Shown one piece after another: positions 28,464 to 41,723 of a DNA stretch of 46,275 nucleotides; the first letter of the stretch is position 1; every line of letters starts with the position of its first letter. The stretch spans positions 524,853 through 571,127 of the forward strand of contig NZ_GL883086.1 in NCBI RefSeq assembly GCF_000204035.1, given 5' to 3'. Source of the stretch: Brevundimonas diminuta ATCC 11568 (GTDB taxonomy: Bacteria > Pseudomonadota > Alphaproteobacteria > Caulobacterales > Caulobacteraceae). The notes under the pieces were generated by a model that ran no database searches, was not told the DNA's origin, and saw nothing but the letters and a program-made list of their open reading frames with translations. Made by a program: the position numbers and the translations under genes.

Positions 28464-28540
<77 letters not shown>

Positions 28541-28595: not shown

Positions 28596-28662
28596 GCAAT
28601 TGGGCGCTAGCGCGCTTCGCGTAAAAGACGAGTCTTCCAGTCGGAACTGTGAACAGGGCAGC

Positions 28663-29967
28663 CTACTGCTGACTGGCGCTGCGGCCGGGACCGAAACGAG
28701 CGCGGAAGTCCTCCAGGCGGATGGTGAACTCGTCCTGCGCTAGGAATTCCTCGTCGGTCATCTGAGGCTGCTCGTTCGGCTTGTACCAGAGTGCGTAGTT
28801 CGGCTCATCCGAGGCGTAGCGTTTGAAGTGGGTCGAATAGGTGCGGACGCGCACGGTCGGAACCTCGCCCGTCATGTCGAAGGCCATCAAACGCAGCCAG
28901 CCATCGCCCAGGCCCGGCGCCTTGGCCGCATCCAGCCCGGCGCCGACGGCGGCGCGGTTGCGGTCCTGATAGTCGGACAGCAGCTGATAGACGGCGCCGC
29001 CCTGGCGGTTCGGGTCGGTGCGGAAGGCCTGGCCGTTGTGATGGCCGCTCAGGACCATGAAGATCTGCGGGTTGCGGCTGATCAGCTTGTCCCACACGCC
29101 CTGGGCGCTGTTGTCGAAGGGATCGAGGGCGTTGATGTCCACGACCGGATGGGCGCGGCGCTGTCCGGTCTTGTCCAGGAAGTCGTGGGTGCTGATCAGG
29201 GTCGGCAGGCCGGGGTGGGCGTGGATGACGGTCTCGGCCCATTTCAGACTGGCGTCGGAAGGGGCGAACTGCAGGCCGATGTGCAGGAAGCGGTAGCCGC
29301 CGGCCTCGAACACCTGGGCGCTGTCCGCGCCGCCGTCGTGCGATCCGACGTACCAGGGGCGGTCCTTGAAGAAGGGCGAGGCGGCGCCGAAGACGCGGAC
29401 CCATTCGGTCAGCCCGCCGACATGGATCATGCCCAGGCGACGCAGGTCGCCTTCAGGCGCGGTCAGGTCGCGCGGCCAGGACTCTTCCCACCACTGGGCG
29501 TCATAGTCGTGATTGCCGGGCACGGCCGAGAAGGGCAGGGCGCCGTCCAGAAGGCGATAGGCGGCGATGGAGGCGGGGATCTCCACCTCGCGGACGCCCG
29601 GCGCCCATTTCGCCGGTCCGACGTCGGAGGGCAGGGCGCGGGGACTGAAGCCGCGCGCGGCGTGATCCGGGTCGATGTCGATGACGGGGTGCTGCCATAC
29701 GTCGCCCGCGCCGGTGGCGAAGACGATGTCGCCGCCGCGCGAGGCGGCGTTGTCGGCGATGAAGCGGAACTGCTCGGTCATCATGTCCCGCGCGTCGAAC
29801 GGAAAGCCGGCCGCGCGCTGGCGCGTGTGATCGACATAGTTCTGAGTGTCGGGGATCACGGCGATGGTGAAACGGGCGTCAGTCGCCTGCTGGGCCAGGC
29901 TGGGGGAGGCCGCCAGAAGGCCGAGGGCCAGGACGGTAGAGCGGAACAGCTTACGCATCATCGACAT
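28663..29967 (-). CDS. Secreted calcineurin-like metallophosphoesterase 1
   Basis: 434 residues. A signal peptide (basic start, hydrophobic core, SPSLAQ near residue 25) sends it to the periplasm or outside. Metal-site motifs in order are IPDTQNY (the usual DxH has Gln for His), ATGAGDVWQH, PGNHDYD, STHDF and LSGHHNG. A second gene of the same type lies at 33837-34976, and the two share segments throughout (SGH, RTYSTHFKRY versus FYTYSTLLGRY). It presumably splits phosphomono- or diesters; the substrate is unknown. It lies last in a minus-strand row after the TonB receptor, with a terminator hairpin between them. Confidence 0.88.
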   Translation of the reverse strand: MSMMRKLFRSTVLALGLLAASPSLAQQATDARFTIAVIPDTQNYVDHTRQRAAGFPFDARDMMTEQFRFIADNAASRGGDIVFATGAGDVWQHPVIDIDPDHAARGFSPRALPSDVGPAKWAPGVREVEIPASIAAYRLLDGALPFSAVPGNHDYDAQWWEESWPRDLTAPEGDLRRLGMIHVGGLTEWVRVFGAASPFFKDRPWYVGSHDGGADSAQVFEAGGYRFLHIGLQFAPSDASLKWAETVIHAHPGLPTLISTHDFLDKTGQRRAHPVVDINALDPFDNSAQGVWDKLISRNPQIFMVLSGHHNGQAFRTDPNRQGGAVYQLLSDYQDRNRAAVGAGLDAAKAPGLGDGWLRLMAFDMTGEVPTVRVRTYSTHFKRYASDEPNYALWYKPNEQPQMTDEEFLAQDEFTIRLEDFRARFGPGRSASQQ

Positions 29968-29989
29968 GGACGCATCTTTCTTCGCGAGG

Positions 29990-30027
29990 AAAAGCGCGAG
30001 GCTTCGGAGCCAAGTCCGAAGCCTCGC
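29990..30027 (-). terminator. Intercistronic terminator between TonB receptor 1 and phosphoesterase 1
   Basis: GCGAGGCTTCGGA (29996-30008) and TCCGAAGCCTCGC (30015-30027) form a perfect 13-bp stem with a 6-base loop. In the minus direction the stem is followed by GCTTTTCC. It should end most receptor transcripts, leaving phosphoesterase 1 to readthrough or a weak promoter in the 69-bp gap. Confidence 0.75.
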
Positions 30028-30036
30028 AGGCAGAGA

Positions 30037-32265
30037 TCAGTAGCGATAGCTAACTCGGGCGCCCCAGGTGCGCGGGGCGTTGGGCGAGCCGGTGGACGCT
30101 GAGATGAAGCGGTTGCGCGACTCTTCCGAATAGGCGTTCGTCAGGTTGTTGACGAAGAAGCCGAAGGCATAGCTGCCGTTCATCGGGCGGAACGTCAGGT
30201 TGGCGTTCATCAGCCAGTAGTCGCCGATGACCGAGTTGGACGAGGTGCTGAACTTCTCGCTGCGGTAGGCGTAGTTGGTTTCCGCCTCGACGCCCCAGTC
30301 GCCGATCTGGTGCTCGTAGGCGATCGAACCCTTGTAGTCGAAGCGCGGGAAGGGCAGGCGCTCGCCTGCACGATCGCTGTAGATGATGGTGTTGTATTCG
30401 CCCGTCACCGGATCCTTGGCGGCTTCGGTGGCCGAGGCGTTGACGAAGAAGAACTCGTCATACTCCCCGTATTTGTAGCCGACCGCCTGGGTGATGGTCA
30501 GGTTGTCCAGGGGCTGCCAGCGCAGCTCCAGCTCGGCGCCCTGGATATGCGACTTCGGCACGTTGATCATGCGGCCGACGCGCCCCGTCTGGGTGTAGAG
30601 CACGCCCTGAAGTTGCTGGTCGCGGTAGTCGTAGTAGTAGATCGCCGCGTTCGCCTGGAGGCGGTTGTCGAACAGGCTGGCCTTCACGCCGGTCTCATAG
30701 GCGATCAGCTCCTCGAACTTGAAGGGCTCCAGCTGATCGGGCAGGCCGCTGTTGTAGGTAGTGAAGCCGCCGGACTTCACCCCGCGCGAGACGTTGGCGT
30801 AGGCCAGGACGCTGTCGCTGAAGGCGTATTCAGCGCCGATCTTGCCAGTCCATTCGCCCATGCTCTGAGACTTGGAGGCGGTGGCGTTGACGCGCGGGAC
30901 CGGAGCCAGAACCTCGGTCTTGAAGTCGTTCAGCTCGCGGGTCTCATCCTCGTAGCGCAAGCCGCCGATCAGGGTCAGGCGATCGGTCAGGCGGTAGTCC
31001 ACATTGGCGAAGGCGCCTGTCGTCTGGACCTTCTGGCCGTAGGTGGTGCTCATCCAGAAACGGAGGCTCTTCGCTTCCGAGAAGTCGGAGTAGAAGCCGC
31101 CGTCGATGTCCTCGGTCGCGTGGTAGAGACCGGCCAGCCATTGCAGACGACCGTCGCCGTTCGAGGCCAGGCGCACTTCCTGCGAGATCGTCTCGATGTC
31201 GTTGAAGAAGTAGGTGCCGGCTTCGTTCGAGGCCGTGGCGTCCCAGTCGTTGAACTCCTTGCGGTCGAAGGACTCATAGGCGGCGACGGCGGTCAGGGCG
31301 GCCCAGCCGAGGTCGTGGTTCAGGCGCAGGCTGACGCCCTTGCCCTCGTTGTCGCGGAACGGCTTGGTGTTGGGCGAGACGCCGATCAGCTGGGCGAAAT
31401 AGGGGGAGATGCCCCAGCCGGTGATCCGGTGCGCCGTATCGATCGGATAGACCTTGCCGCCGCCCGAGGTGAAGGGGGTGGTGATCAGGCGCAGGCCCCG
31501 ACCGTCCGACTTGTCCTGGCTGTAGTGGACGTTAAGGTCGAGGTCGGTCAGGTCGCTGGGGCGCCAGTTCAGGCGCAGGCGCAGGGCCTTGGTGTCCTTG
31601 TCGCCCAGGGTTTCGCCCGTGTCGCGGTGGTATTGCCAGCCGCCGCCCGTCTCGGCCGCGACGGCCAAGCGGGCGCTCAGGGTTCCGGCGACCGGACCCG
31701 AAACAAAGCCCTCGAACTTGGCGGCGTCATAGCTGCCGTAGCTGGCGTTGAAGCCGGCCGCGACATAGTCCGTCGGCGCTCCGGTGACGACGCTGACCGC
31801 GCCGCCGGTGGTGTTGCGGCCGTACAGCGTGCCCTGCGGCCCGCGCAGAACCTCGATGCGGGCGATGTCGAACAACTGGCCCTGGGTCATCACGCCGTAG
31901 GGATAGGCGACTTCATCGATATAGACGCCGACGGTCGAGGTGTTGTTGGCGGCGTAGTCCGTCAGGCCGACGCCGCGGATGCGGAACTGGGGCTGGCCGC
32001 CGCCCAGCTGGCTGTCGACCTCCATGCTGGGGACGGCGTTTTCCAGGTCGTTGACCGTCTGGATGTTGCGCTTGTCCAGGTCTTCGCCCGATACGACCGT
32101 CAGGGCCAGGCCGACCTTCTGCGCGGATTCCTCGCGGCGCTGCGCGGTGACGATGATGTCCTGAACGGAGGTGGCCTGAGGCTCGGTCGCGACCTCGGCC
32201 GCCGCGGGCGCGGCCGCCGCAAGGAGCAGGGCGGCGCTCGAGGCGCCGAAAAGAAGACGGTTCAT
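30037..32265 (-). CDS. TonB-dependent outer membrane receptor 1 (no STN domain)
   Basis: 742 residues from ATG 32265 (ATG 32277 is also in frame). The signal peptide ends AAAAPAAAEV. Then comes the TonB-box region DIIVTAQRREESAQKV, a plug with NIQTVNDLENAVPSM, FRIRGVGLTDYA, VGVYIDEV and [20 protein letters not shown], and a beta-barrel ending in VSYRY with a terminal aromatic. It imports an unknown ligand using TonB energy. The plug style is that of Caulobacterales and sphingomonad receptors, which take up sugars, aromatic compounds or phosphorylated compounds as well as iron. The upstream region with GTTC-type repeats separates it from the double TetR gene. Confidence 0.93.
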   Translation of the reverse strand: MNRLLFGASSAALLLAAAAPAAAEVATEPQATSVQDIIVTAQRREESAQKVGLALTVVSGEDLDKRNIQTVNDLENAVPSMEVDSQLGGGQPQFRIRGVGLTDYAANNTSTVGVYIDEVAYPYGVMTQGQLFDIARIEVLRGPQGTLYGRNTTGGAVSVVTGAPTDYVAAGFNASYGSYDAAKFEGFVSGPVAGTLSARLAVAAETGGGWQYHRDTGETLGDKDTKALRLRLNWRPSDLTDLDLNVHYSQDKSDGRGLRLITTPFTSGGGKVYPIDTAHRITGWGISPYFAQLIGVSPNTKPFRDNEGKGVSLRLNHDLGWAALTAVAAYESFDRKEFNDWDATASNEAGTYFFNDIETISQEVRLASNGDGRLQWLAGLYHATEDIDGGFYSDFSEAKSLRFWMSTTYGQKVQTTGAFANVDYRLTDRLTLIGGLRYEDETRELNDFKTEVLAPVPRVNATASKSQSMGEWTGKIGAEYAFSDSVLAYANVSRGVKSGGFTTYNSGLPDQLEPFKFEELIAYETGVKASLFDNRLQANAAIYYYDYRDQQLQGVLYTQTGRVGRMINVPKSHIQGAELELRWQPLDNLTITQAVGYKYGEYDEFFFVNASATEAAKDPVTGEYNTIIYSDRAGERLPFPRFDYKGSIAYEHQIGDWGVEAETNYAYRSEKFSTSSNSVIGDYWLMNANLTFRPMNGSYAFGFFVNNLTNAYSEESRNRFISASTGSPNAPRTWGARVSYRY

Positions 32266-32370
32266 GTGTCGATCCATCGGGCAGCGCGGGCGATCCAGTC
32301 GCTCAGGCTGGAAAGTTGGGGAATGTCGCGATCAGCCGTAGTTCTCACGCCGTGTGACCGGCCTTAAAAA

Positions 32371-32491
32371 AACAACTGTTCGACAACATTTCCGCTGTAG
32401 GAGATGGTCGTGATGCTTTGGTGAAGCTTATTTGAAGTGTTGCTGTCGCGCTGCCTGTCGATGACTGTTCCGAATAAGGAACGATTGTTCG
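32371..32491. promoter_or_regulatory. Control region between the double TetR gene and TonB receptor 1
   Basis: This spacer is AT-richer than the flanking genes. It contains GTTCC-GAATAA-GGAAC, a perfect 5-bp inverted repeat (32467-32482), with a further GTTCG at 32487-32491. TGTTCGACAACA at 32378-32389 has TGTT/AACA ends. Several half-sites of the GTTC type on both strands fit binding by a TetR-family protein, most simply the one encoded next door. Confidence 0.4.
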
Positions 32492-32493
32492 AT

Positions 32494-33753
32494 TCAGTCG
32501 CGCTGGGTGACCAAGGTCTTGGCGACGGTTTGCAGGCGCGCGGCATCGGGCGCATCACCCGTCGCCGCCGCCATGATGGCCGCGCCCTTGATCCATAAGG
32601 CGAAACGGGTGGCGGCGCGGCGCGTCAGGTCGAATTGAGGCGGCCAGAGTTCGCCGCGGTTGGTGTAGTTGCCGCCGCCTTCAGGCCCGCGCAGGATCAT
32701 CGCCAGTTCCTGGAAGGACGGATCGCGACGCGCCTGCAGGCAGACCTGGGCGATCAGACGGGCGTACTTGACGTAGAAGCCGCGTTCGCCGCCCGCAGGC
32801 GTCTCCAGGGTAAGGGCCATCATCTCGCCCCACCGCTGCATATCCGGAGGACCGGCGCCCAGCGGATGGCGGTAGTCGAGGTAGCGGGGCATCTCGCGGA
32901 AGACCGCGTGCCAGACGGCGTCGATCACGAACCGCCGCATATCCGTCCAATGGTAGGCGATGGTGGAGGTCGAAGTGCCGACCTCCGTGCTGACCGAGCG
33001 GTTGGTGACGATCCCGACGCCTCCGCTCAGGATCTGGTCTGCGGCGACGTCGAGCAGACGCCGCTTGATGGAATCCGGTTCCAGTCCGTCGCTCGGCGCC
33101 TTGGGGATCACCATCCGATCGACATAGCTTTCGGTCGCTGAGGCCGGATCGTCGGGGCGGCCGAAGGCCCGATCGATCAGGCCGCCCAATCCCTCGGCCG
33201 CAATCGCCTCATAGTCCGAGCGACCGCCCAGGGCGCCGACGTAAAACTGCTCGATGATCAGGTAGGTGGAGATCGCCTCGCCGAACGCTTCCAGGCCGGG
33301 GCGACGCGCCAGGAAGGCCGTCCAGGCGTCGCGCCGCATGAGATCCCAGCGTCGCAGCAGGGGAGGCAGGAAGGCCGCCGGGTCGGGGCTGACCAGCAGT
33401 TCTTCCCACACCCGGGCGAAGTCGGCAGAGGACGCGGCGCGTTCTCGCAAGTAACGGGCGGTCAGGGCCAGCAGGCTGTCGCGGCTGAGGGCCAGGTCGT
33501 CGGCGGCGGCGAAGAAGGCCTCGTGGTAGGCCTCGTCCTGCTCGAACGCCCTGAAGGCGATGGCTTCGATAAGCCCCGCCTTGGCGCCGAACAGATTGAC
33601 GATGACGGTCGTGCTCTTGCCGACGGCCTGGGCCAGGTCGCGCATGGTCAGGCCGCCCAGGCCGACGTCCGTGACCAGGGTCATGGCCGCGGCGACGACG
33701 CGGTCGGCCTCGAGCGAGCGTGATGAAGCGATCGTCGTCATCGCAGCGTGCAT
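32494..33753 (-). CDS. Double-headed TetR-family regulator (two TetR domains in one chain)
   Basis: 419 residues from ATG 33753, about twice a normal TetR protein. The first DNA-binding domain (about residues 15-60) reads RVVAAAMTLVTDVGLGGLTM, RDLAQAVGKSTTVIVNLFG and KAGLIEAIAF. The second (about 228-276) reads KRRLLDVAADQILSGGVGIV, TNRSVSTEVGTSTSTIAYHW and DMRRFVIDAVW. Each is followed by about 150 helical residues like a TetR ligand domain. TetR proteins work as dimers, so this chain may be a built-in pseudo-dimer or may bridge two operators. The frame is open to a TTG at 33840 that overlaps the phosphoesterase 2 stop (TTGA), so coupled translation from there is possible. It lies directly upstream of TonB receptor 1, its likely target. 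Confidence 0.85.
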   Translation of the reverse strand: MHAAMTTIASSRSLEADRVVAAAMTLVTDVGLGGLTMRDLAQAVGKSTTVIVNLFGAKAGLIEAIAFRAFEQDEAYHEAFFAAADDLALSRDSLLALTARYLRERAASSADFARVWEELLVSPDPAAFLPPLLRRWDLMRRDAWTAFLARRPGLEAFGEAISTYLIIEQFYVGALGGRSDYEAIAAEGLGGLIDRAFGRPDDPASATESYVDRMVIPKAPSDGLEPDSIKRRLLDVAADQILSGGVGIVTNRSVSTEVGTSTSTIAYHWTDMRRFVIDAVWHAVFREMPRYLDYRHPLGAGPPDMQRWGEMMALTLETPAGGERGFYVKYARLIAQVCLQARRDPSFQELAMILRGPEGGGNYTNRGELWPPQFDLTRRAATRFALWIKGAAIMAAATGDAPDAARLQTVAKTLVTQRD

Positions 33754-33836
33754 GGCCGCCTGAAACGGTCGTGTCGAGGCCTGATCGCTTTCTTGGGCAA
33801 GGCCTGCGACGAAAAACGGCGGATCGCGTCGCGGAC

Positions 33837-34976
33837 TCAATCCTGAAGCTGCGGCGGGAAGGGCAGCACGAACTCGGACCGTTCGGGCGCGACGCCGAAA
33901 GTCGCTTCGCCGTCGCGACCAGCATACCGGCCCAGCAGGGTTGAATAGGTATAGAAGCGGATGGTCCGGGCCTCGGTGTCGAAGGCCATGAAACGCAGCC
34001 AGCCTGCGCCGCCGTTGGCCGAACCGGCCTGTCCGTCCGGGCCGACGGTGTTGCCCTGATAGTCTTGGATCAGCTGATAGACGGGACGCCCGGCGTCGTT
34101 ATGGTCGATGCGCAGGTTCTCGCCGTTGGATACGCCCTCGATCGGGCGGGTGTAGTTGTGGCCGCTCAGGACCATGAAGATCATCGCGTTCTTGCGGATG
34201 AAACGGTCCCAGACCTGATCGGGCGGCAGGTTGTCTGCGCCCGCGAAATAGCTGTCGTAGCCGTTGGAGCGTTCCTGCACGTCAGGCTTCAGCCATTCAT
34301 GGGTGGTGACGATGACGGGCGTGTCCGGATGGGCGTCGATCACGCCCTGGGCCCAGTCCAGCGCCGCCTGGGGCGGCTGCATCTCCAGCGACAGGTGCAG
34401 GAAGGACAGGCCGCCGGCCGTGAAGGTCTGGAAGCTGTTCAGACCGTTCGCCGAGGCGCCGCCATACCAGGCCTTATCCGTGAAATGGCGCGACTGGGGG
34501 CCGAAATAGAAGTTCCAGGCGCGGCCGCCCGACAGGGGTTCGGAGACGCCGTCGTAGCCGCGCCATGCATAGTTGTCGTAGTCGTGGTTGCCGGGAACCA
34601 TGCCGAACGGCAGGCCGCTGTCGGTCAGGATCGAGAGGGCGCGGTTGGCGATGTCCCATTCCTCGCGCGTGTCGAAGAGCTGGTATTCGCCCTCTGCGTC
34701 TGGAATGGCGCGTCGGAACTGGCCGTCGCCATGCTGGACGATGTCGCCGACGAAGGTGACGAAGGCCAGGTTCTTGTCCTGGCGGGTCTCGACCAGATAA
34801 CGCATCTGCTGGTCGAAGGTGTCGGCGCCGCGCGGCTGGGGCAGGGTGACGTCGGCGTAGTTCTGGGTGTCGGAGACGACGGCGATGGTGAAGACCTCGG
34901 CCCAGGCCGGAACCGCCGCGCCCAGCAGCGCCGCGCTGAAGGCGACCGCCGCGCCCAGGTGTTTGAACATCGTCAT
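33837..34976 (-). CDS. Secreted calcineurin-like metallophosphoesterase 2
   Basis: 379 residues from ATG 34976, which has AGGA about 8 bases before it; ATG 34985 is an alternative. The signal peptide ends VPAWAE. Motifs are VVSDTQNYAD (Gln again in place of the first His), TFVGDIVQHGDG, VPGNHDYDNY, TTHEW and LSGHNYTR. It is a paralogue of the enzyme at 28663-29967 with a shorter C-terminus. It is the first gene of the minus-strand row and divergent from the sigma factor at 35132, with 155 bp between. It is probably a periplasmic phosphoesterase serving the adjacent receptors. Confidence 0.88.
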   Translation of the reverse strand: MTMFKHLGAAVAFSAALLGAAVPAWAEVFTIAVVSDTQNYADVTLPQPRGADTFDQQMRYLVETRQDKNLAFVTFVGDIVQHGDGQFRRAIPDAEGEYQLFDTREEWDIANRALSILTDSGLPFGMVPGNHDYDNYAWRGYDGVSEPLSGGRAWNFYFGPQSRHFTDKAWYGGASANGLNSFQTFTAGGLSFLHLSLEMQPPQAALDWAQGVIDAHPDTPVIVTTHEWLKPDVQERSNGYDSYFAGADNLPPDQVWDRFIRKNAMIFMVLSGHNYTRPIEGVSNGENLRIDHNDAGRPVYQLIQDYQGNTVGPDGQAGSANGGAGWLRFMAFDTEARTIRFYTYSTLLGRYAGRDGEATFGVAPERSEFVLPFPPQLQD

Positions 34977-35131
34977 ATGCGTCATCCTGAAACCGATATG
35001 CAGCCGCCCTTAGCGACGCTGTGTGACGCTTTGGCTGCGATGACGCGCCTGAACGCATCGGGGATGCGCTGATACGGAAATGTCGTGCGACCGACATGAG
35101 GCGGTGACGATGCGGCGTCATTGGGCGCGCG

Positions 35132-35692
35132 GTGAACCGACAGCCAAGCCAGCCTTTCGACAGGGACGACGCGACGTCCGCCCTGACGCGCGACGAGGGA
35201 TTCGCGGCGTTGACGCGGCGGTTGCGGGCGCCGTTGACGCATTTCTTCCTGCGGCGGTCGAAATCGTCGGCGGATGCGGAGGAGATGGTTCAGGATTTGT
35301 TCCTGCGCCTAATGCGCCGCGCGGACTTGATGAGCCTGCAGAACATCGACGGTTATGTCTTTGAGGCGGCGGCCAACATTGCGCGGGATCGGGGGCGCTA
35401 TGAGCAGGCGCGGGGTCGAGGCCTGCATGTCGAGATCAACGACGCCGTGGCCGAGTATGACGCGCCTGACGCCGAACAGATCATCGCGGGGAGGCAGCGT
35501 TTGAAACGGATGCTGGCGGCGCTGGACGCCCTGCCGCCGCGTGCGCGGGCCGTGGTGATCCTGCGTCGGTTCGAGAACCTGACCTATCCGCAGATCGCCC
35601 AGCGTCTGGGCATTTCGGTCAGCGCGGTCGAGAAGCACATGGTGCGAGCCATGTCCGCGCTGAGGGTCGACCTGGTCGAGGGGGATCGCTGA
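35132..35692 (+). CDS. ECF sigma factor (FecI-like)
   Basis: 186 residues, starting with GTG. Region 2 reads LTHFFLRRSKSSADAEEMVQ, DLFLRLMRRADLMSLQNIDG, YVFEAAANIARDRGR. Region 4 reads LDALPPRARAVVILRRFENL, TYPQIAQRLGISVSAVEKHM. It pairs with the FecR-like gene that overlaps its stop as TGATG, and with the STN-type receptor after that, the standard iron-starvation type signalling trio. It should direct RNA polymerase to the receptor promoter when the ligand binds outside. TGTCG/CGACA inverted arms (35081-35096) precede the gene. Confidence 0.93.
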   Translation: MNRQPSQPFDRDDATSALTRDEGFAALTRRLRAPLTHFFLRRSKSSADAEEMVQDLFLRLMRRADLMSLQNIDGYVFEAAANIARDRGRYEQARGRGLHVEINDAVAEYDAPDAEQIIAGRQRLKRMLAALDALPPRARAVVILRRFENLTYPQIAQRLGISVSAVEKHMVRAMSALRVDLVEGDR

Positions 35693-36699
35693 TGTTTCCG
35701 GTTCACCCCCGATTAAACGACGAGGAAGCGGTCGATCCGGCCGCCTTCTGGTTCGCGCGAATGAACGGCGGCGATACGCCCTGCCCTCAAGACGAGATCG
35801 CCTTCCGGCGGTGGTTGGATGAAGATCCTGGCCATATCCGCGACTATCGAGCCTGTCAGCAGGCGTGGAGAATGCTGGAGCTTGAGGCGGGGCAGCCCGA
35901 GGTGTTGGCCCTGAGGGCGGCGGCGCTGGGGCGTGCCGATTCAGGCGCGACGCGACGGCGGGCTCTGCTCGGCCTGACCGGCGGGGCCATTGCGGCGTCC
36001 TGCGGCGGGCTGTGGGTGATGACGGCGTCGTCACCGGCGCGGGCGCTGATCGCGACCGAGGCGGGGCAGCGACTGACCGCGCCCCTGCCGGACGGGTCGG
36101 AGGTGACGTTGGCGCCGTCTTCTCGACTGCGCCTCGATTACGGCGCCGAACGTCGCGCGGCGGTGCTGGAAGCCGGTCAGGCCTATTTCCACATTCAGCC
36201 CGACGCCGAGCCCTTCGTCCTGCGCGTCGGCGATCGCTTGATGGCGACCGCGCAGGGGCGCTTCCAGGCGACCCACGCAGACCGAGGGCCGGAGGCGCTG
36301 GTCGAACAGGGACGGCTGAGGGTGGTTCAAAGAGGCGGCGCTGGCGCGCCTCTGATCCTGACGGCGGGGCAGGGCGGGCTGGCGCGCGGCGATGAACTGC
36401 GGGCCGCGCCGGCAGACGTCGAGGCCGAGACGGCCTGGCGGATGGGGCGTCTGGTCGTGCGCGACCGTCCGCTGCGCGAGGTGGTCGAACGCTTCAATCG
36501 CTATTCGGCGGAGCGGTTGACGCTGACGGATGCGGCGGCGGGGGAGGTCCGCATTTCAGGCTCGTTCCGCTATGACGGCGGGCAGGAGTTCGCCCTGGCT
36601 CTGGCGCGCGGGTTCGGCCTGTCGGTGCGGCGCACGACGGACGGGGACTGGCGCATCGGATCGCCCGAAAAAACGTCTGACGAAACGGCTGCGCTTTGA
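35692..36699 (+). CDS. FecR-family anti-sigma factor
   Basis: 335 residues. The cytosolic N-terminal domain (DUF4880 type) has AAFWFARMNGGDTPCPQDEI and AFRRWLDEDPGHIRDYRACQ. A single membrane segment follows RRRALLGLTGGAIAASCGG (about residues 83-105). The twin arginine there fits the Tat-dependent insertion known for FecR proteins. The periplasmic FecR domain has GQRLTAPLPDGSEVTLAPSS and RRAAVLEAGQAYFHI. A C-terminal STN-like unit is shown by LREVVERFNRYSAERLTL and LARGFGLSVRR. It holds the sigma factor until the receptor signals. Confidence 0.92.
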   Translation: MFPVHPRLNDEEAVDPAAFWFARMNGGDTPCPQDEIAFRRWLDEDPGHIRDYRACQQAWRMLELEAGQPEVLALRAAALGRADSGATRRRALLGLTGGAIAASCGGLWVMTASSPARALIATEAGQRLTAPLPDGSEVTLAPSSRLRLDYGAERRAAVLEAGQAYFHIQPDAEPFVLRVGDRLMATAQGRFQATHADRGPEALVEQGRLRVVQRGGAGAPLILTAGQGGLARGDELRAAPADVEAETAWRMGRLVVRDRPLREVVERFNRYSAERLTLTDAAAGEVRISGSFRYDGGQEFALALARGFGLSVRRTTDGDWRIGSPEKTSDETAAL

Positions 36700-36700
36700 T

Positions 36701-36750
36701 GAAATTTCCACGACGGGGTGGGGGTCTGCGCAGGCGCTTCCGTTTCTGAG
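36701..36750 (+). promoter_or_regulatory. Candidate ECF-dependent promoter of TonB receptor 2
   Basis: Directly after the fecR-like stop, GAAATTTCC, then GGGGTGGGGGTC (36715-36726), then CGTTTC (36741-36746) recalls the conserved spacer between fecR and receptor genes in this bacterial group. I suggest a -35 in the G-run and a -10 at CGTTTC. A CCGCCG/CGGCGG hairpin (36757-36773) follows in the leader. Confidence 0.35.
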
Positions 36751-36793
36751 GGGGAGCCGCCGACGAGCGGCGGACCAGATCTCAGGGGCTACC

Positions 36794-39307
36794 ATGTTCA
36801 TTTCCAAGCCGCGCGCCGGCGCCTTCAAGCGCATGCTGCTGGCCTGCTCGGCCGTCGCTGCGGTCGCAGCGGCGACGCCGGCTCTGGCCCAGTCGCCGAG
36901 CGGCGGCGCGGCCGTCTCCTTCGCCATTGAAAGCCAGTCGATGGAAGAGGCGCTGACGACGCTGGCGCGCACCGCCGACGTGCAGGTGCTGTTCGCGCCG
37001 GAAGCCGTGCGCGGTCGCCGCGCCAATCGCGTGGTCGGCGTCCTAGCGCCCGCCGAGGCGCTGCGCCGCATGGTGGAGGGCACGGGCCTGACCGTGACGC
37101 CGGTCGGCGCGCGCACCTTTTCTGTTGCAGTCGCTCATGCCGATCTCGGATCCGACGGCGTCACCGCGATCGAGGACGTGATCGTCACGGCTCAGAAGCG
37201 CGCCCAGCGCATCCAGGACGTGCCGCTGGCCGTCACCATGCTGAACGGCGAAGACGCCCTTCGTCGCGGCATCGACAGCGTGACCGACCTGGTGGACGAA
37301 GTTCCAGGCGTGTCGGTGAACTACGCCTTCGGCGGCACCAACTACGGCCTGATCAGCATCCGCGGCATCGGCGGCGCCGATGACTACAAGCCTAACGGCA
37401 ATCCCTCGGTCGCCCTGCACGTCGACGGCGTCTATCAGACCTCGAACGCCTATCTGGGCATGCCTCTGTTCGACCTGGACCGGGTCGAGATCCTGAAAGG
37501 ACCGCAAGGCACCCTGTACGGCCGCAACACCACGGCGGGCGTCATCAACGCCATCACAAAGGGGCCGGGCGAGGCGGTCGAAGGTTCGGGCCGTCTCGAG
37601 TTCGGCAGCTATGACTATCTGGCGATGGAGGCGGCCGTCGGCGGTCCCCTGAGCGACACGGTCGGCGTGCGGCTGGCCGTGCTGGCCGAGCAGGGCGGCG
37701 GCTTCATGACCGGGGCGGGCGCGGGCGACCTGGCGGGCTTCCAGCCGGTCATCGCAGGCGTGACCCAGGCCCAGGTTCCGCCCATCGTCGATCCGGGCCG
37801 CCGTGAAGGTTTCGGCGACAAGGATCTGTTCGCCGGCCGGGCCACGGTCGCCTTTGACTTTACGCCGGACACCAACCTGACCGTGAAGCTGTTCGGCAGC
37901 CGCGACCGGGGCGACACGCGCCAGTACGACCGCATCTCGACGACGCTGGACAGCAATATCGCCAATGCGGGCGAGAACGACGACCCGTACGAGTTCTATT
38001 CGTCGGAGTATCCGACCCACAGCATCGACATCTATGGCGTGTCGGCGGCGTTGCAGCATCGTCTGGGCGATGACCTGAATCTGGCGGTGATCGGCAACGT
38101 CCAGGGCACGACTCGCTCGGTGCAGGGCAACGGCGACGGCTCGCCCTATCCGGCCTCGCGCTTCGATGCCGATGAGACGCTGAACCAGACCTCGCTCGAA
38201 ATGCGCTTGAGCGACGACAACGACGGTCGTCTGGACTGGATCGTGGGCGCCTTCTACGTCTCGGACGATATCGACTTCGACACCCACTGGACCAGCTATA
38301 CGGCCCGGACCCAGTACGACAACCTGCACAAGCAGACGCGCAACAGCTTCGCCGTGTTCGGCCAGGTCGACTATGACCTGACCGACAAGCTGACCCTGTC
38401 GGGCGGCCTGCGCTACACCCGCGACGAGGCGACCTTCAGCGGGCGCAACGACGACCTGGACCCGTGGGGCATCTCGACCTTCACCAAGACCTTCGCCACG
38501 ACCGATCCCTTTGTCTGGGACCGCGCCTTCGAGGACGACAACGTGTCGGGTCGGGTCACGGCCAAATACGCCTTCACCCCGAACCTGAACGTCTTCGTCT
38601 CGGCGGGGACCGGCTATCGCGGCGGCGGCTTCGACGGCACCTCGATCTTCACCCAGGCCGAGACCCTGCCGTTCGATTCCGAAACCGTCACCGCCTATGA
38701 GGCCGGGCTGCGCTGGACGACGAACCGTCTTCGCCTGTCGGTGGACGTCTTTTCCTATGAGTTCAAGGAACTGCAGGCGACGACCCGTCTGGCCAACGAC
38801 ACCAACGGCCGCGCCAACGTCGGCGAGGCCGAGAGCAAGGGGATCGAGTTCGCGCTCAACGCCGTCCTGTTCGAAAGCGCGAACCAGAGCCTGGATCTAG
38901 ACGTCGCCGCCGCCTTCCTGGACACGGAGATCATCTCGTTCAGCTCGGCGCGCGTGGCCGAGGTGCTGTCGACCGTCGGCGACCCCCTGCCGGGTGCGCC
39001 GGACGTGACGGCGACGGTTTCGCTGAACCACGGTCTGGTGCTGGCCAACGGTTGGCGTCTGGACAGCCGCTTGTCGGTCTCGCACCACGGCGAGGAGAGC
39101 AACCGCCTGAACGCGGCTCCGGGCAATACGGCGGACGCCTATACCCTGCTGAACGCCCGCGTGGAACTGCAGACGGCGGCCGATTGGGCGGTCTACGCCT
39201 ATGGCCGCAACATCACCGACGAGGTGTATTTCCCTGAAAAGAACGGCGCTTCGCGTCTGGTCGGGGCGCCTGCGACCTATGGCGTGGGCCTGCGCTACAG
39301 GTTCTGA
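36794..39307 (+). CDS. TonB-dependent receptor 2 with N-terminal STN signalling domain
   Basis: 837 residues from ATG 36794 (CAGGGG 6 bases upstream). The signal peptide ends TPALAQ. The STN domain spans about residues 37-115: [40 protein letters not shown] and [20 protein letters not shown]. Then come the TonB box [17 protein letters not shown], a plug with [16 protein letters not shown] and [20 protein letters not shown], and a barrel ending GLRYRF. The STN domain would signal ligand binding to the FecR-like protein. The ligand is unknown; neighbours suggest phosphoesters or an unusual iron complex. Confidence 0.95.
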
Positions 39308-39367
39308 CGACACTGAGGTCGCGCCGTCTCTCGCGTGTTGGAGCGGCGGCGCAACCTCACCAGCGCG

Positions 39368-39535: not shown

Positions 39536-40084
39536 ATGCGCCAGATTTCATTGACCGTCATCGCCGTGTCCTTGTTGCTCGCCGGTTGCAACGCCGGCGC
39601 TTCCGCTCGGGACGGCGTGGATCAGGTGGGCACGGGATTAGGCGACGCCGTTACCGCGCCGCTTGAGGATCTGAATCTCAAGCGTCAGGAAATCCCAACC
39701 ATTCTGCTTCAGGCGGAATCCAATCCGTATGACCTGCGCAACATGACGCGATGCTCGGTGATCGCTGCCGAAATCGGGCGATTGGATGAGGCTCTGGGCC
39801 CGGATACGGACGTTGCGCCCACCGACGATGGAACCTTCATGAGCGAGCGCGCTGCCGACGCTGCGGCAGGCGCGACGCTGGACGCCGTGCGCGGCACGGT
39901 GACGGACTTCATTCCGGCTCGCAGCTGGGTGCGCCGTCTGACCGGCGCCGACGCGCACAGCAAGCACGTTCAGTCAGCCATTCAGGCGGGCCTGCGTCGC
40001 CGCTCCTTCCTGAAGGGCGTGGGAATGCAGCGGAATTGTGCGCCTCCGGCGGCTCCGGCGGGCTTCGTTCCGCGTAGAGGCTAG
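39536..40084 (+). CDS. Small lipoprotein of unknown function
   Basis: 182 residues. The signal sequence ends SLLLAGC, a good lipobox (Cys18). The mature part starts [20 protein letters not shown], with [20 protein letters not shown], then [20 protein letters not shown] and a basic tail. I do not recognise the family; the amphipathic pattern suggests helices at the membrane. Its TAG stop shares CTAG with the stop of tgt on the other strand (40081-40084). No strong ribosome site is visible. Confidence 0.75.
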
Positions 40085-41193
40085 GCCTTCAGGTGCCGCG
40101 CGCGGAAGTCGCGGCGGAACTGCTCGAACCGCCCCTCGGCGATGGCCGCGCGCATGGCGGCCGTCAGGGCCTGGAAGAAGGCGATGTTGTGCCAGCTCAG
40201 CAGGATCTTGCCGAGAATCTCATCAGCGCGGATCAGGTGGTGCAGGTAAGCCTTTGAATAATCTTGTGAGGCCGGGCAGGGAACTTCGGGGTCCAGAGGA
40301 TCCTGATCCTCGGCGAAGCGCGCGTTCTTGAGATTCAGCGGGCCGTCCCAGGTCCAGGCCTGACCATGGCGCCCCGCGCGCGTCGGCAGGACGCAGTCGA
40401 ACATGTCGACGCCGCGATAGACCGCTTCGACCAGGTCGATCGGCTTGCCGACGCCCATCAGATAGCGTGGGCGGTCCTTGGGCAGGAACTCGGGCGCATA
40501 GTCCAACACTTCGCACATGGCTTCATGGCCTTCGCCGACCGCCAGGCCGCCGAGGGCGTAGCCGTCGAAACCGATCTCCTGCAGGCGTTCTGAGGATTCA
40601 CGGCGCAGGTTCTCATAGGTCGAACCCTGCTGAATGCCGAACAGGGCCTGCGCATCGCGCGTGCCGAAGGCGTTCTTGGAGCGCTGGGCCCAACGCGCCG
40701 ACAACTCCATGCCTTCGCGCGCGCGCTTTTCCTCGGCGGGCCAGGCGACGCATTCGTCCAACTGCATGACAATGTCGGAGCCGAGGCGGTCGGCCTGGAT
40801 CTGAATCGAGCGCTCCGGCGTCAGGACGTGTTTGGAGCCGTCGATGTGGCTGGAGAAGGTCACGGCCTCCTCGGACAGCTTGGAGATGCCCGACAGGCTC
40901 ATGACCTGGAAGCCGCCTGAGTCCGTCAGGATCGGCTTGTCCCAGCGCATGAAGTTATGGAGGCCGCCCAGGCGCTCCATCCGCTCGGGACCGGGCCGCA
41001 GCATCAAATGGTAGGTGTTGCCCAGTATGACGTCCGCGCCGGTCTGCTTGACCTGATCCACCGTCATCGCCTTGACCGTTGCGGCGGTGCCGACGGGCAT
41101 GAAGGTGGGGGTGCGGATATCGCCGCGCGTGGTTTTCAGCACGCCGGTGCGGGCGCGGCCTTCGACAGCGGAGATCTCAAATGGAAAAGGCAT
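40081..41193 (-). CDS. tgt: Queuine/preQ1 tRNA-ribosyltransferase
   Basis: 370 residues from ATG 41193 (AAGGAA 6 bases upstream); longer starts have no support. Tgt features: [23 protein letters not shown] with the catalytic region, [43 protein letters not shown] and [17 protein letters not shown]. It exchanges guanine 34 for preQ1 in tRNAs with GUN anticodons. The usual zinc site CxCxxC is reduced to PCPASQDYS, with only one of the three cysteines left before AYLHHL. It belongs to an operon with queA. Confidence 0.95.
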
Positions 41194-41246
41194 GGGCGTT
41201 CCTTGCAGGGAGGCGCGTCTTAGGCCGTCTGCTCCGTAACCGCCAG

Positions 41247-41723
41247 TCAGCGCAGTAGCGTCTCGAGGCGCTCCGCGCGCTGCAGATCCTTCGGGCGACC
41301 GAACAGGCGGCATTTCTCGATCTGTTCGGAGACGGTGGGGATGTAAATCGTCCCCCCGTCCAGTTCGACACCCTGGCGCGTGGTGAAGATGACCGGAGTC
41401 CAGTCCGCGCCCGCGCGGACGTCCATCATCGCCATGACCTCGATTGGAACCGGCGTGGTCAGGATTTCGCCGAACACCTGCGACCGGAACAGGCCTTCGC
41501 CGGGGTCTTCGATGGCTTCGCCGTGCAGGGCCTCGATCAGGCGCCGCGCGTCGCGCGGGCTGGTCATGACGTCGACGTCAGGCACGTGCCACTCCGACAG
41601 GCCCGACAGGGCCATGCCGGCGCCGCCGAACACCCACCAGGGATCCTGAAGCTCACTGGCCGCCGAGGCCAGGATGTCGAAGGTCGCGGCCAGATTTTCG
41701 GGCAGGTCGTCGATGTGGCTCAT
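41247..41723 (-). CDS. Nucleotidyltransferase-like protein within the queuosine operon
   Basis: 158 residues. [25 protein letters not shown] shows the GG-x10-DxD pattern of minimal nucleotidyltransferases (split here: [13 protein letters not shown], then VPDVDVM). Later parts [20 protein letters not shown] and [20 protein letters not shown] fit the fold with a third acidic strand (IEVM). It overlaps the queA stop as ATGA and lies 53 bp before tgt on the same transcript. It may be a kanamycin-type or MNT-like transferase or a nonenzymatic relative. A role in tRNA modification is a guess from position alone. Confidence 0.65.

Follow-up and report, generated by a model that had tools for sequence, protein, structure and literature searches.

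We analysed a 46,275-nucleotide stretch of Brevundimonas diminuta ATCC 11568, hereafter the window (positions 524,853 to 571,127 of contig NZ_GL883086.1, from a 3.37 Mb assembly of 8 contigs), in which two groups of genes, each combining a TonB receptor and a secreted metallophosphoesterase (MPE) with its own regulator, lie next to each other. The group that we call module 2 reads entirely on the minus strand and consists of TetR-C (32494..33753), a tandem, or double-headed, TetR regulator recognized by its TetR_N domain, its structural model and a fold match to Mce3R; TBDR-B (30037..32277), a TonB-dependent receptor (TBDR) with Pfam Plug and barrel domains; and MPE-A (28663..29967), predicted to be a secreted calcineurin-like phosphoesterase from its fold model and its identity to MPE-D. 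Module 1 comprises MPE-D (33837..34985, minus strand), a second predicted secreted calcineurin-like phosphoesterase with a PF00149 match, and a divergent run on the plus strand: an extracytoplasmic function (ECF) sigma factor (35132..35692, sigma-70 r2/r4), a FecR-like anti-sigma factor (35692..36699, PF04773 and PF16220) and TBDR-G (~36788..39307, Plug and barrel), a TonB receptor with an STN-like N-terminal signalling domain. The reading frame of TBDR-G is open from 36530, and its STN domain (PF07660) scores 26.2 bits, slightly under the Pfam cut-off of 28.4. For TetR-C we used the ATG start; a longer form beginning with TTG at 33840 is possible, but the orthologues start near the ATG. An earlier note on this DNA had proposed all seven genes, with two regulators of different kinds among them, and open reading frames, with Pfam profiles for all but MPE-A, place each one where it was expected; the 155-bp spacer that it gave between MPE-D and the ECF gene comes to 146 bp with the starts used here.

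The same note had read the genes as one locus with two regulatory inputs, whose halves should cluster in related genomes if the idea was right. This largely fails, and the window holds two cassettes side by side, not a single locus. Among 131 genomes of the same genus, 23 carry an MPE of this kind (counted at E <= 1e-20): the D type occurs in 15, a clear A type in 16 and both types in nine, while G185, which has only a divergent, partial relative 44% identical to MPE-A, was excluded from the 16. The two types are adjacent in just two of the nine, the window genome and G078 (its locus was represented by two overlapping pieces, L027 and L028, counted once), and here the modules differ in both order and orientation. 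In the other seven, the types are either more than 100 kb apart on one contig (two genomes) or on different contigs (five genomes). Each half is separately conserved with its own receptor, esterase and regulator; the part of the earlier proposal that paired a receptor with a periplasmic phosphoesterase as a unit is supported. The order TetR-C, TBDR-B, MPE-A is kept in all 16 A-type genomes (TBDR-B was called in two pieces in G209), and TBDR-B shares 77-97% identity with its counterpart in 14 of the other 15 genus copies and 52% in the remaining one, from G178. In 7 of the 15 genomes with the D type, MPE-D stands back to back with the ECF-FecR-TBDR-G run, on the opposite strand; in the remaining eight its gene comes after a different receptor (cluster c7), with no such trio seen beside it. 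The module borders are also visible in DNA matches with sharp ends: window positions 33845-39328 match G156, which has the D type only, and 28661-33788 match G188, which has the A type only, each at 92%.

An integrated locus, where both receptors and both esterases serve one ligand and the TetR and ECF inputs feed one regulon, would fit the observation that the two MPE types share a genome more often than chance would have it (9 of 131 against 1.8 expected, Fisher p 2e-6, uncorrected for kinship; 4 against 0.85, p 0.004, if only ECF-linked MPE-D is counted), and the joining of the modules in two different arrangements is a hint of some joint benefit. Against this, G156 and G188 each make do with a single type, more than half of the MPE-D copies are paired with a different receptor and lack a neighbouring ECF trio, and the conserved sites described below differ between the modules. 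Because the types are non-adjacent in 7 of the 9 genomes that hold both, we rejected the single locus as the main explanation and consider it unlikely. In a wider family sample of 149 genomes there were 17 matches, six of them weak (E 1e-4 to 1e-3) and not used; the six stronger matches outside the genus comprise one D-like gene (79%, G071), whose surroundings offer just distant ECF-, FecR- and receptor-like genes, and A-like genes in five genomes.

Judging from its relatives, module 2 of the window is the remainder of an operon that was once longer. In 13 of the 16 genus copies (G179 in two pieces) MPE-A has a full-length PhoD match behind it (PF09423, E 1.6e-104 in one case), and a PAP2 protein lies downstream in 12 of the 16, its sole NCBIfam match being the acid phosphatase PhoC, below the cut-off; near the module of G122 there is a distantly related PhoD-like gene (34%). 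One strain with the complete module is Brevundimonas NBRC 12165 (L119). In G188, the copy closest to that of the window, pieces of PhoD and PAP2 remain and the middle is deleted, and between MPE-A and tRNA-Pro in the window no PhoD or PAP2 match is left. The host keeps a PhoD elsewhere, at 1419 kb (77% across the greater part of the protein, some 70 residues staying unaligned), and a PAP2 protein (70%) at the same place, behind a TBDR-B paralogue and an AptA-like aminotransferase. This locus (L098, G000:C5:1408000-1427999) holds two TBDRs in all, 45% and 53% identical to TBDR-B, the latter being the paralogue just mentioned, and its upstream genes resemble, by eye, an aldehyde dehydrogenase and a short-chain dehydrogenase/reductase; its substrate might be an amino-alcohol phosphate ester.

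The two MPEs are paralogous and predicted to be secreted, in line with the earlier note: they share 36% identity across 400 columns, the predicted fold of MPE-A is calcineurin-like, and each begins with a stretch that by eye resembles a signal peptide. MPE-D matches Metallophos (PF00149) with 36.9 bits against a cut-off of 21.5; a Pfam scan of MPE-A gives no match at E 0.01, and a PDB sequence search with either protein gives none up to E 1. The structural model of MPE-A (pLDDT 91.5) comes closest to Lmo2642 (VIA Z 21.2 over 278 residues, root-mean-square deviation (rmsd) 3.9; Foldseek E 1.5e-8), followed by human purple acid phosphatase (Z 19.8), GpdQ (19.6) and SMPDL3A (19.0), with low Foldseek TM scores, the best among the top three being 0.44. 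The ligand set of calcineurin-like metallophosphoesterases consists of D-x-H, GD, GNH[DE], a single His and GHxH. In all 39 aligned relatives the first of these motifs is D-T-Q, with Gln in place of His. None of the 39 departs from GD, GNHD, the single His or GH, whereas the final His of motif V (GHxH) is present in 20 of them; it is replaced by Asn in MPE-A and by Tyr in MPE-D. With this Gln in motif I and the variable last His, these MPEs look like a subfamily whose metal site has changed.

The spacers of the two modules contain different conserved sites. Between TetR-C and TBDR-B, all 16 genomes have two GAAC-N4-GTT sites at a distance of 98-112 bp; in the window both are on the minus strand, the promoter-proximal one at 32370..32381 and the distal one, here a perfect palindrome, at 32479..32490. 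They are predicted operators of TetR-C, which their position suggests would bind them; the motif has 79 matches on both strands of 499 kb of related loci, these spacer sites included. The spacer between MPE-D and the ECF gene carries a palindrome, TGTCG-N6-CGACA (35081..35096, no strand assigned), a predicted control site present in all 7 module 1 genomes and found in 9 copies in the 499 kb, of which 8 are these very spacer sites, one counted twice. A second palindrome, TGACG-N6-CGTCA, lies at 35105-35120, right before the ECF start, and is partly kept in other genomes, as judged by eye from the alignment. We also considered control by PhoB: the top Pho-box scores of seven intergenic regions range from 7 to 10 out of 14 and stay within the spread of 260-bp window pieces (7 to 11), and the score upstream of TBDR-B is 8 or 9 in 15 of 16 genomes and 11 in one, so this candidate was dropped.

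That TetR-C is double-headed, as the earlier note had it, is supported by its model (pLDDT 84.8), which has two helix-turn-helix units and which Mce3R (9b7y) alone in the PDB matches below E 0.001, in an alignment of 430 columns with 12% identity. The case is weak by sequence: the second head reaches 13.2 bits in the window copy and 18.0 and 22.9 bits in two orthologues against a Pfam cut-off of 24, and a comparison of one half with the other gives a probability of 37%. A literature search on tandem TetR proteins returned nothing useful, and it was the fold search that brought up Mce3R, a repressor from M. tuberculosis with a double TetR architecture. As a portion of PMC11667970 describes it, Mce3R likewise has two TetR units in one chain and binds two conserved sites that precede a transport operon, as predicted for TetR-C. 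The Mce3R subfamily is further characterised by an asymmetric assembly within the chain and a single ligand pocket; the TetR-C model is an AF2 prediction of the protein by itself. The differences are considerable: the superposition is loose (TM 0.40, rmsd 13.7), TetR-C precedes an alphaproteobacterial operon for a receptor and a phosphoesterase, and its sites are partly palindromic and 98-112 bp apart, whereas those of Mce3R are, in the same portion of that paper, two asymmetric 25-bp sites separated by 53 bp.

The control genes of module 1 are of another kind. An ECF sigma factor, a FecR protein and an STN receptor are the classic form of a ferric siderophore system, and the trio of the window resembles FecI-FecR-FecA in that an ECF gene, a gene for a FecR-domain protein and one for a TonB receptor, with an STN-like domain below the cut-off, are adjacent in one run, conserved in 7 genomes. 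The whole could then be a system for uptake of iron or a metal chelate, with the MPEs as incidental neighbours, and the best NCBIfam match of both receptors is in fact TonB-siderophor, though below its cut-off (152.6 and 141.5 bits against 223.5). Against this, a secreted phosphoesterase stands divergent from the trio in all 7 of these genomes, which sets it apart from FecI-FecR-FecA (this count was made from MPE-D-bearing loci; the trio alone was not searched for), and most copies of MPE-A in the genus have genes for PhoD and a PhoC-like enzyme behind them. We regard uptake of iron or a metal chelate as very improbable.

The explanation that we favour, and hold to be probable, is that the window contains two independent and portable modules for organophosphate-ester utilisation that adjoin each other. 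Starting from the gene content, borders and conservation of the modules, the predicted fold of MPE-A, the conserved sites, the loss of PhoD and PhoC and the genes found next to relatives, we infer the steps of transport, hydrolysis, operator binding and induction as follows. In each module the TonB receptor would import an organic phosphate ester, which may be a di- or triester, through the outer membrane, and the periplasmic MPE would cleave it. In the full-length form of module 2, PhoD and the PhoC-like acid phosphatase would strip the remaining esters to yield phosphate and alcohol, a step that the PhoD-PAP2 pair at the other locus may carry out in the window host. Module 2 would be held off by the tandem TetR, sitting on the two GAAC-N4-GTT sites, until the ester, or a product of it, has entered, and module 1 would be turned on from the outside through TBDR-G, FecR and ECF; control is most likely substrate-specific. 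The ligand is probably phosphorylated, in agreement with the earlier note, and the leading candidates are dialkyl or trialkyl phosphates and glycerophosphodiesters. Within this explanation, alkyl or other xenobiotic di- or triesters are a quite reasonable possibility for the substrate class, short of a likely one.

To our knowledge, the outer-membrane step in the uptake of organic phosphate esters is little known outside Bacteroidetes. The closest comparison is with the PUS loci of Flavobacterium, where, according to part of PMC8115612, organic phosphorus is used by way of a TonB transporter and neighbouring periplasmic phosphodiesterases, among them a PF00149 protein. The PUS loci, however, have SusCD-type pairs and are induced by phosphate depletion in the account given there, whereas the modules of the window would stand under TetR or ECF/FecR and their host belongs to a different phylum. 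Since no SusD family protein was found among the eight window proteins scanned with Pfam and NCBIfam, the modules are best described as analogous to PUS loci and not as members of them. An ester hydrolase tied to TonB-dependent transport is also described for Sphingobium fuliginis, with its organophosphate hydrolase (OPH), in a section of PMC7142613, and the stepwise conversion of a triester to phosphate has a counterpart in the phosphodiesterase pathway of TCM1, as outlined in part of PMC5460133. The folds differ in both comparisons: the opd enzymes belong to the amidohydrolase superfamily (so a passage of PMC13418517), and Sb-PDE has a PHP domain (same part of PMC5460133), whereas neither MPE-A nor MPE-D has a Pfam match to a PHP domain and the predicted fold of MPE-A is calcineurin-like instead. 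A literature search, with subscription journals mostly outside its reach, found no paper on this gene set.

To see where such enzymes occur elsewhere, we considered named loci with MPE-A relatives, the best 80 of at least 159 confirmed relatives, six of the 80 being from Brevundimonas. Genes were counted from stop-to-stop frames because a simple gene caller missed the MPE in 14 of the 80. A TonB receptor lies directly upstream of the MPE on the same strand in 32, and within about 5 kb of the MPE there are TetR genes in 24, PhoD in 12 and PAP2 in 7; FecR is present in at least 3 and ECF in at least 1, both lower bounds, as the profiles were built on the window type. On a plasmid of P. aeruginosa LYT4 and on pAKD18, a tandem TetR with two TetR_N stretches adjoins the MPE, and with a profile of our own two TetR heads were also found in Methylobacterium DB0501 and in an Oceanospirillaceae bin. 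The MPEs of LYT4 and pAKD18 have no signal peptide by eye and lie beside transporter genes, of the major facilitator superfamily (MFS) in LYT4 and for an ATP-binding cassette (ABC) system, with a phosphatase, in pAKD18. The LYT4 locus (L065), on an IncP plasmid, runs through tandem TetR, signal-less MPE, MFS, YCF48-like and MMPL genes and continues with transposase, DUF1302 and DUF1329 genes, a set that looks catabolic.

The plasmid CP053224 of Sphingobium RSMS carries an MPE with a signal-peptide-like start that is 54% identical to MPE-A but, in contrast to module 2, adjoins alcohol-oxidation genes, namely those for a pyrroloquinoline quinone (PQQ) alcohol dehydrogenase, an aldehyde dehydrogenase and an AMP-binding enzyme, and has a TonB receptor at a distance of 9 kb; no TetR or PhoD is found among the annotated features within 10 kb, in a gene table that is incomplete. 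The same MPE (435 of 439 residues) occurs in a 1.8-kb block on a plasmid of Sphingobium EP60837, beside IS21-type genes and near genes for a GMC oxidoreductase and an aldehyde dehydrogenase. Sphingobium RSMS degrades tributyl phosphate, and as of 2020 the genetic basis was not elucidated (PMC7561683); a passage in a 2026 meeting report (PMC13173872) states that an RSMS metallo-phosphoesterase degrades di- and tributyl phosphate. This enzyme may be the plasmid MPE; the comparison covered the plasmid and not the RSMS chromosomes.

These settings bear on the nature of the substrate. A different one, such as phospholipid head groups, glycerophosphodiesters or nucleotides, with MPE-A acting like GpdQ or the acid-sphingomyelinase-like enzymes, is suggested by the closeness of its fold to GpdQ and SMPDL3A, alongside Lmo2642 and purple acid phosphatase, and by the locus of Methylobacterium that matches pAKD18 (L187), in which an MPE relative lies beside UgpC/A/B-like ABC genes and an SpdA-like phosphodiesterase, all below the NCBIfam cut-offs. 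Such substrates are also thought, in a passage of PMC8115612, to be used by the PUSI loci of Flavobacterium with their periplasmic diesterases. The Z scores, though, are too close together to choose a substrate, and the tributyl-phosphate and plasmid settings favour, if indirectly, alkyl or xenobiotic esters; the alternative is possible, if on the doubtful side.

Several observations weigh against the organophosphate-ester modules as we have drawn them. The D-x-Q motif and the lost last His may leave one metal site weakened, and for these enzymes both activity and substrate are predictions. No receptor lies directly upstream of the MPE in 48 of the 80 named loci, and some of these MPEs are found with L,D-transpeptidase, RtcB-like or acyl-CoA dehydrogenase genes. 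Moreover, the block common to RSMS and EP60837 holds the MPE and not the alcohol-oxidation genes, so that this neighbourhood may be incidental, and the passage of PMC13173872 does not specify which RSMS metallo-phosphoesterase is meant. As to control, GAAC-N4-GTTY has 4 matches in the window against 1.6 expected, a number reached in 13 of 100 shuffles, and the evidence for these sites is, in sequence terms, their conservation and not their frequency in the window; TGTCG-N6-CGACA has 1 match there, and 7 of 100 shuffles also have one. With no Pho box above background, a role in phosphate starvation is not supported.

A bolder version of the two-module explanation can be envisioned, in which the DTQ-motif MPEs form an unrecognised class of di- and triesterases that travel as TonB-linked chromosomal cassettes or as plasmid genes flanked by insertion sequences (IS), the CP053224 member is the tributyl-phosphate hydrolase of RSMS, and the tandem TetR senses such esters or their alcohols as a heterodimer within one chain, a proteobacterial counterpart of Mce3R; taken together, these propositions are rather speculative and we doubt that all would hold. 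Gene sets and candidate enzymes for phosphate-ester uptake and cleavage in alphaproteobacteria can in any case now be named, cloning one gene would put the tributyl-phosphate question to the test, and the tandem TetR, whose predicted operators are short, is a possible phosphate-ester biosensor.

Both modules are flanked in the window by tRNA-Pro (28464-28540) and tgt (40081-41313). In the eight relatives searched, these two genes are more than 100 kb apart on one contig (3 of 8) or on separate contigs (5 of 8), and therefore the window seems to span a rearrangement point. Insertion of a single island into tRNA-Pro was considered and not adopted, with no search made for an att repeat or an integrase.

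Three further settings of MPE relatives were noted. On plasmid pISP2 of Sphingomonas MM-1 (L024, 11943-16011), a 67% relative of MPE-D is divergent from a gene of the endonuclease/exonuclease/phosphatase family, which is followed by a CHAD-domain gene. In eight loci, mostly from Hyphomonas (L131, L134, L138, L141, L143 and L145-L147), MPE-A relatives share a neighbourhood that has no adjacent TonB receptor, the gene after the MPE-A relative being RtcB-like in L131. Finally, a plasmid of Novosphingobium MBES04 (L066, 6949-15300) carries a row of MPE, MFS and TonB receptor genes between IS6-family transposase genes, an arrangement like that of a composite transposon.

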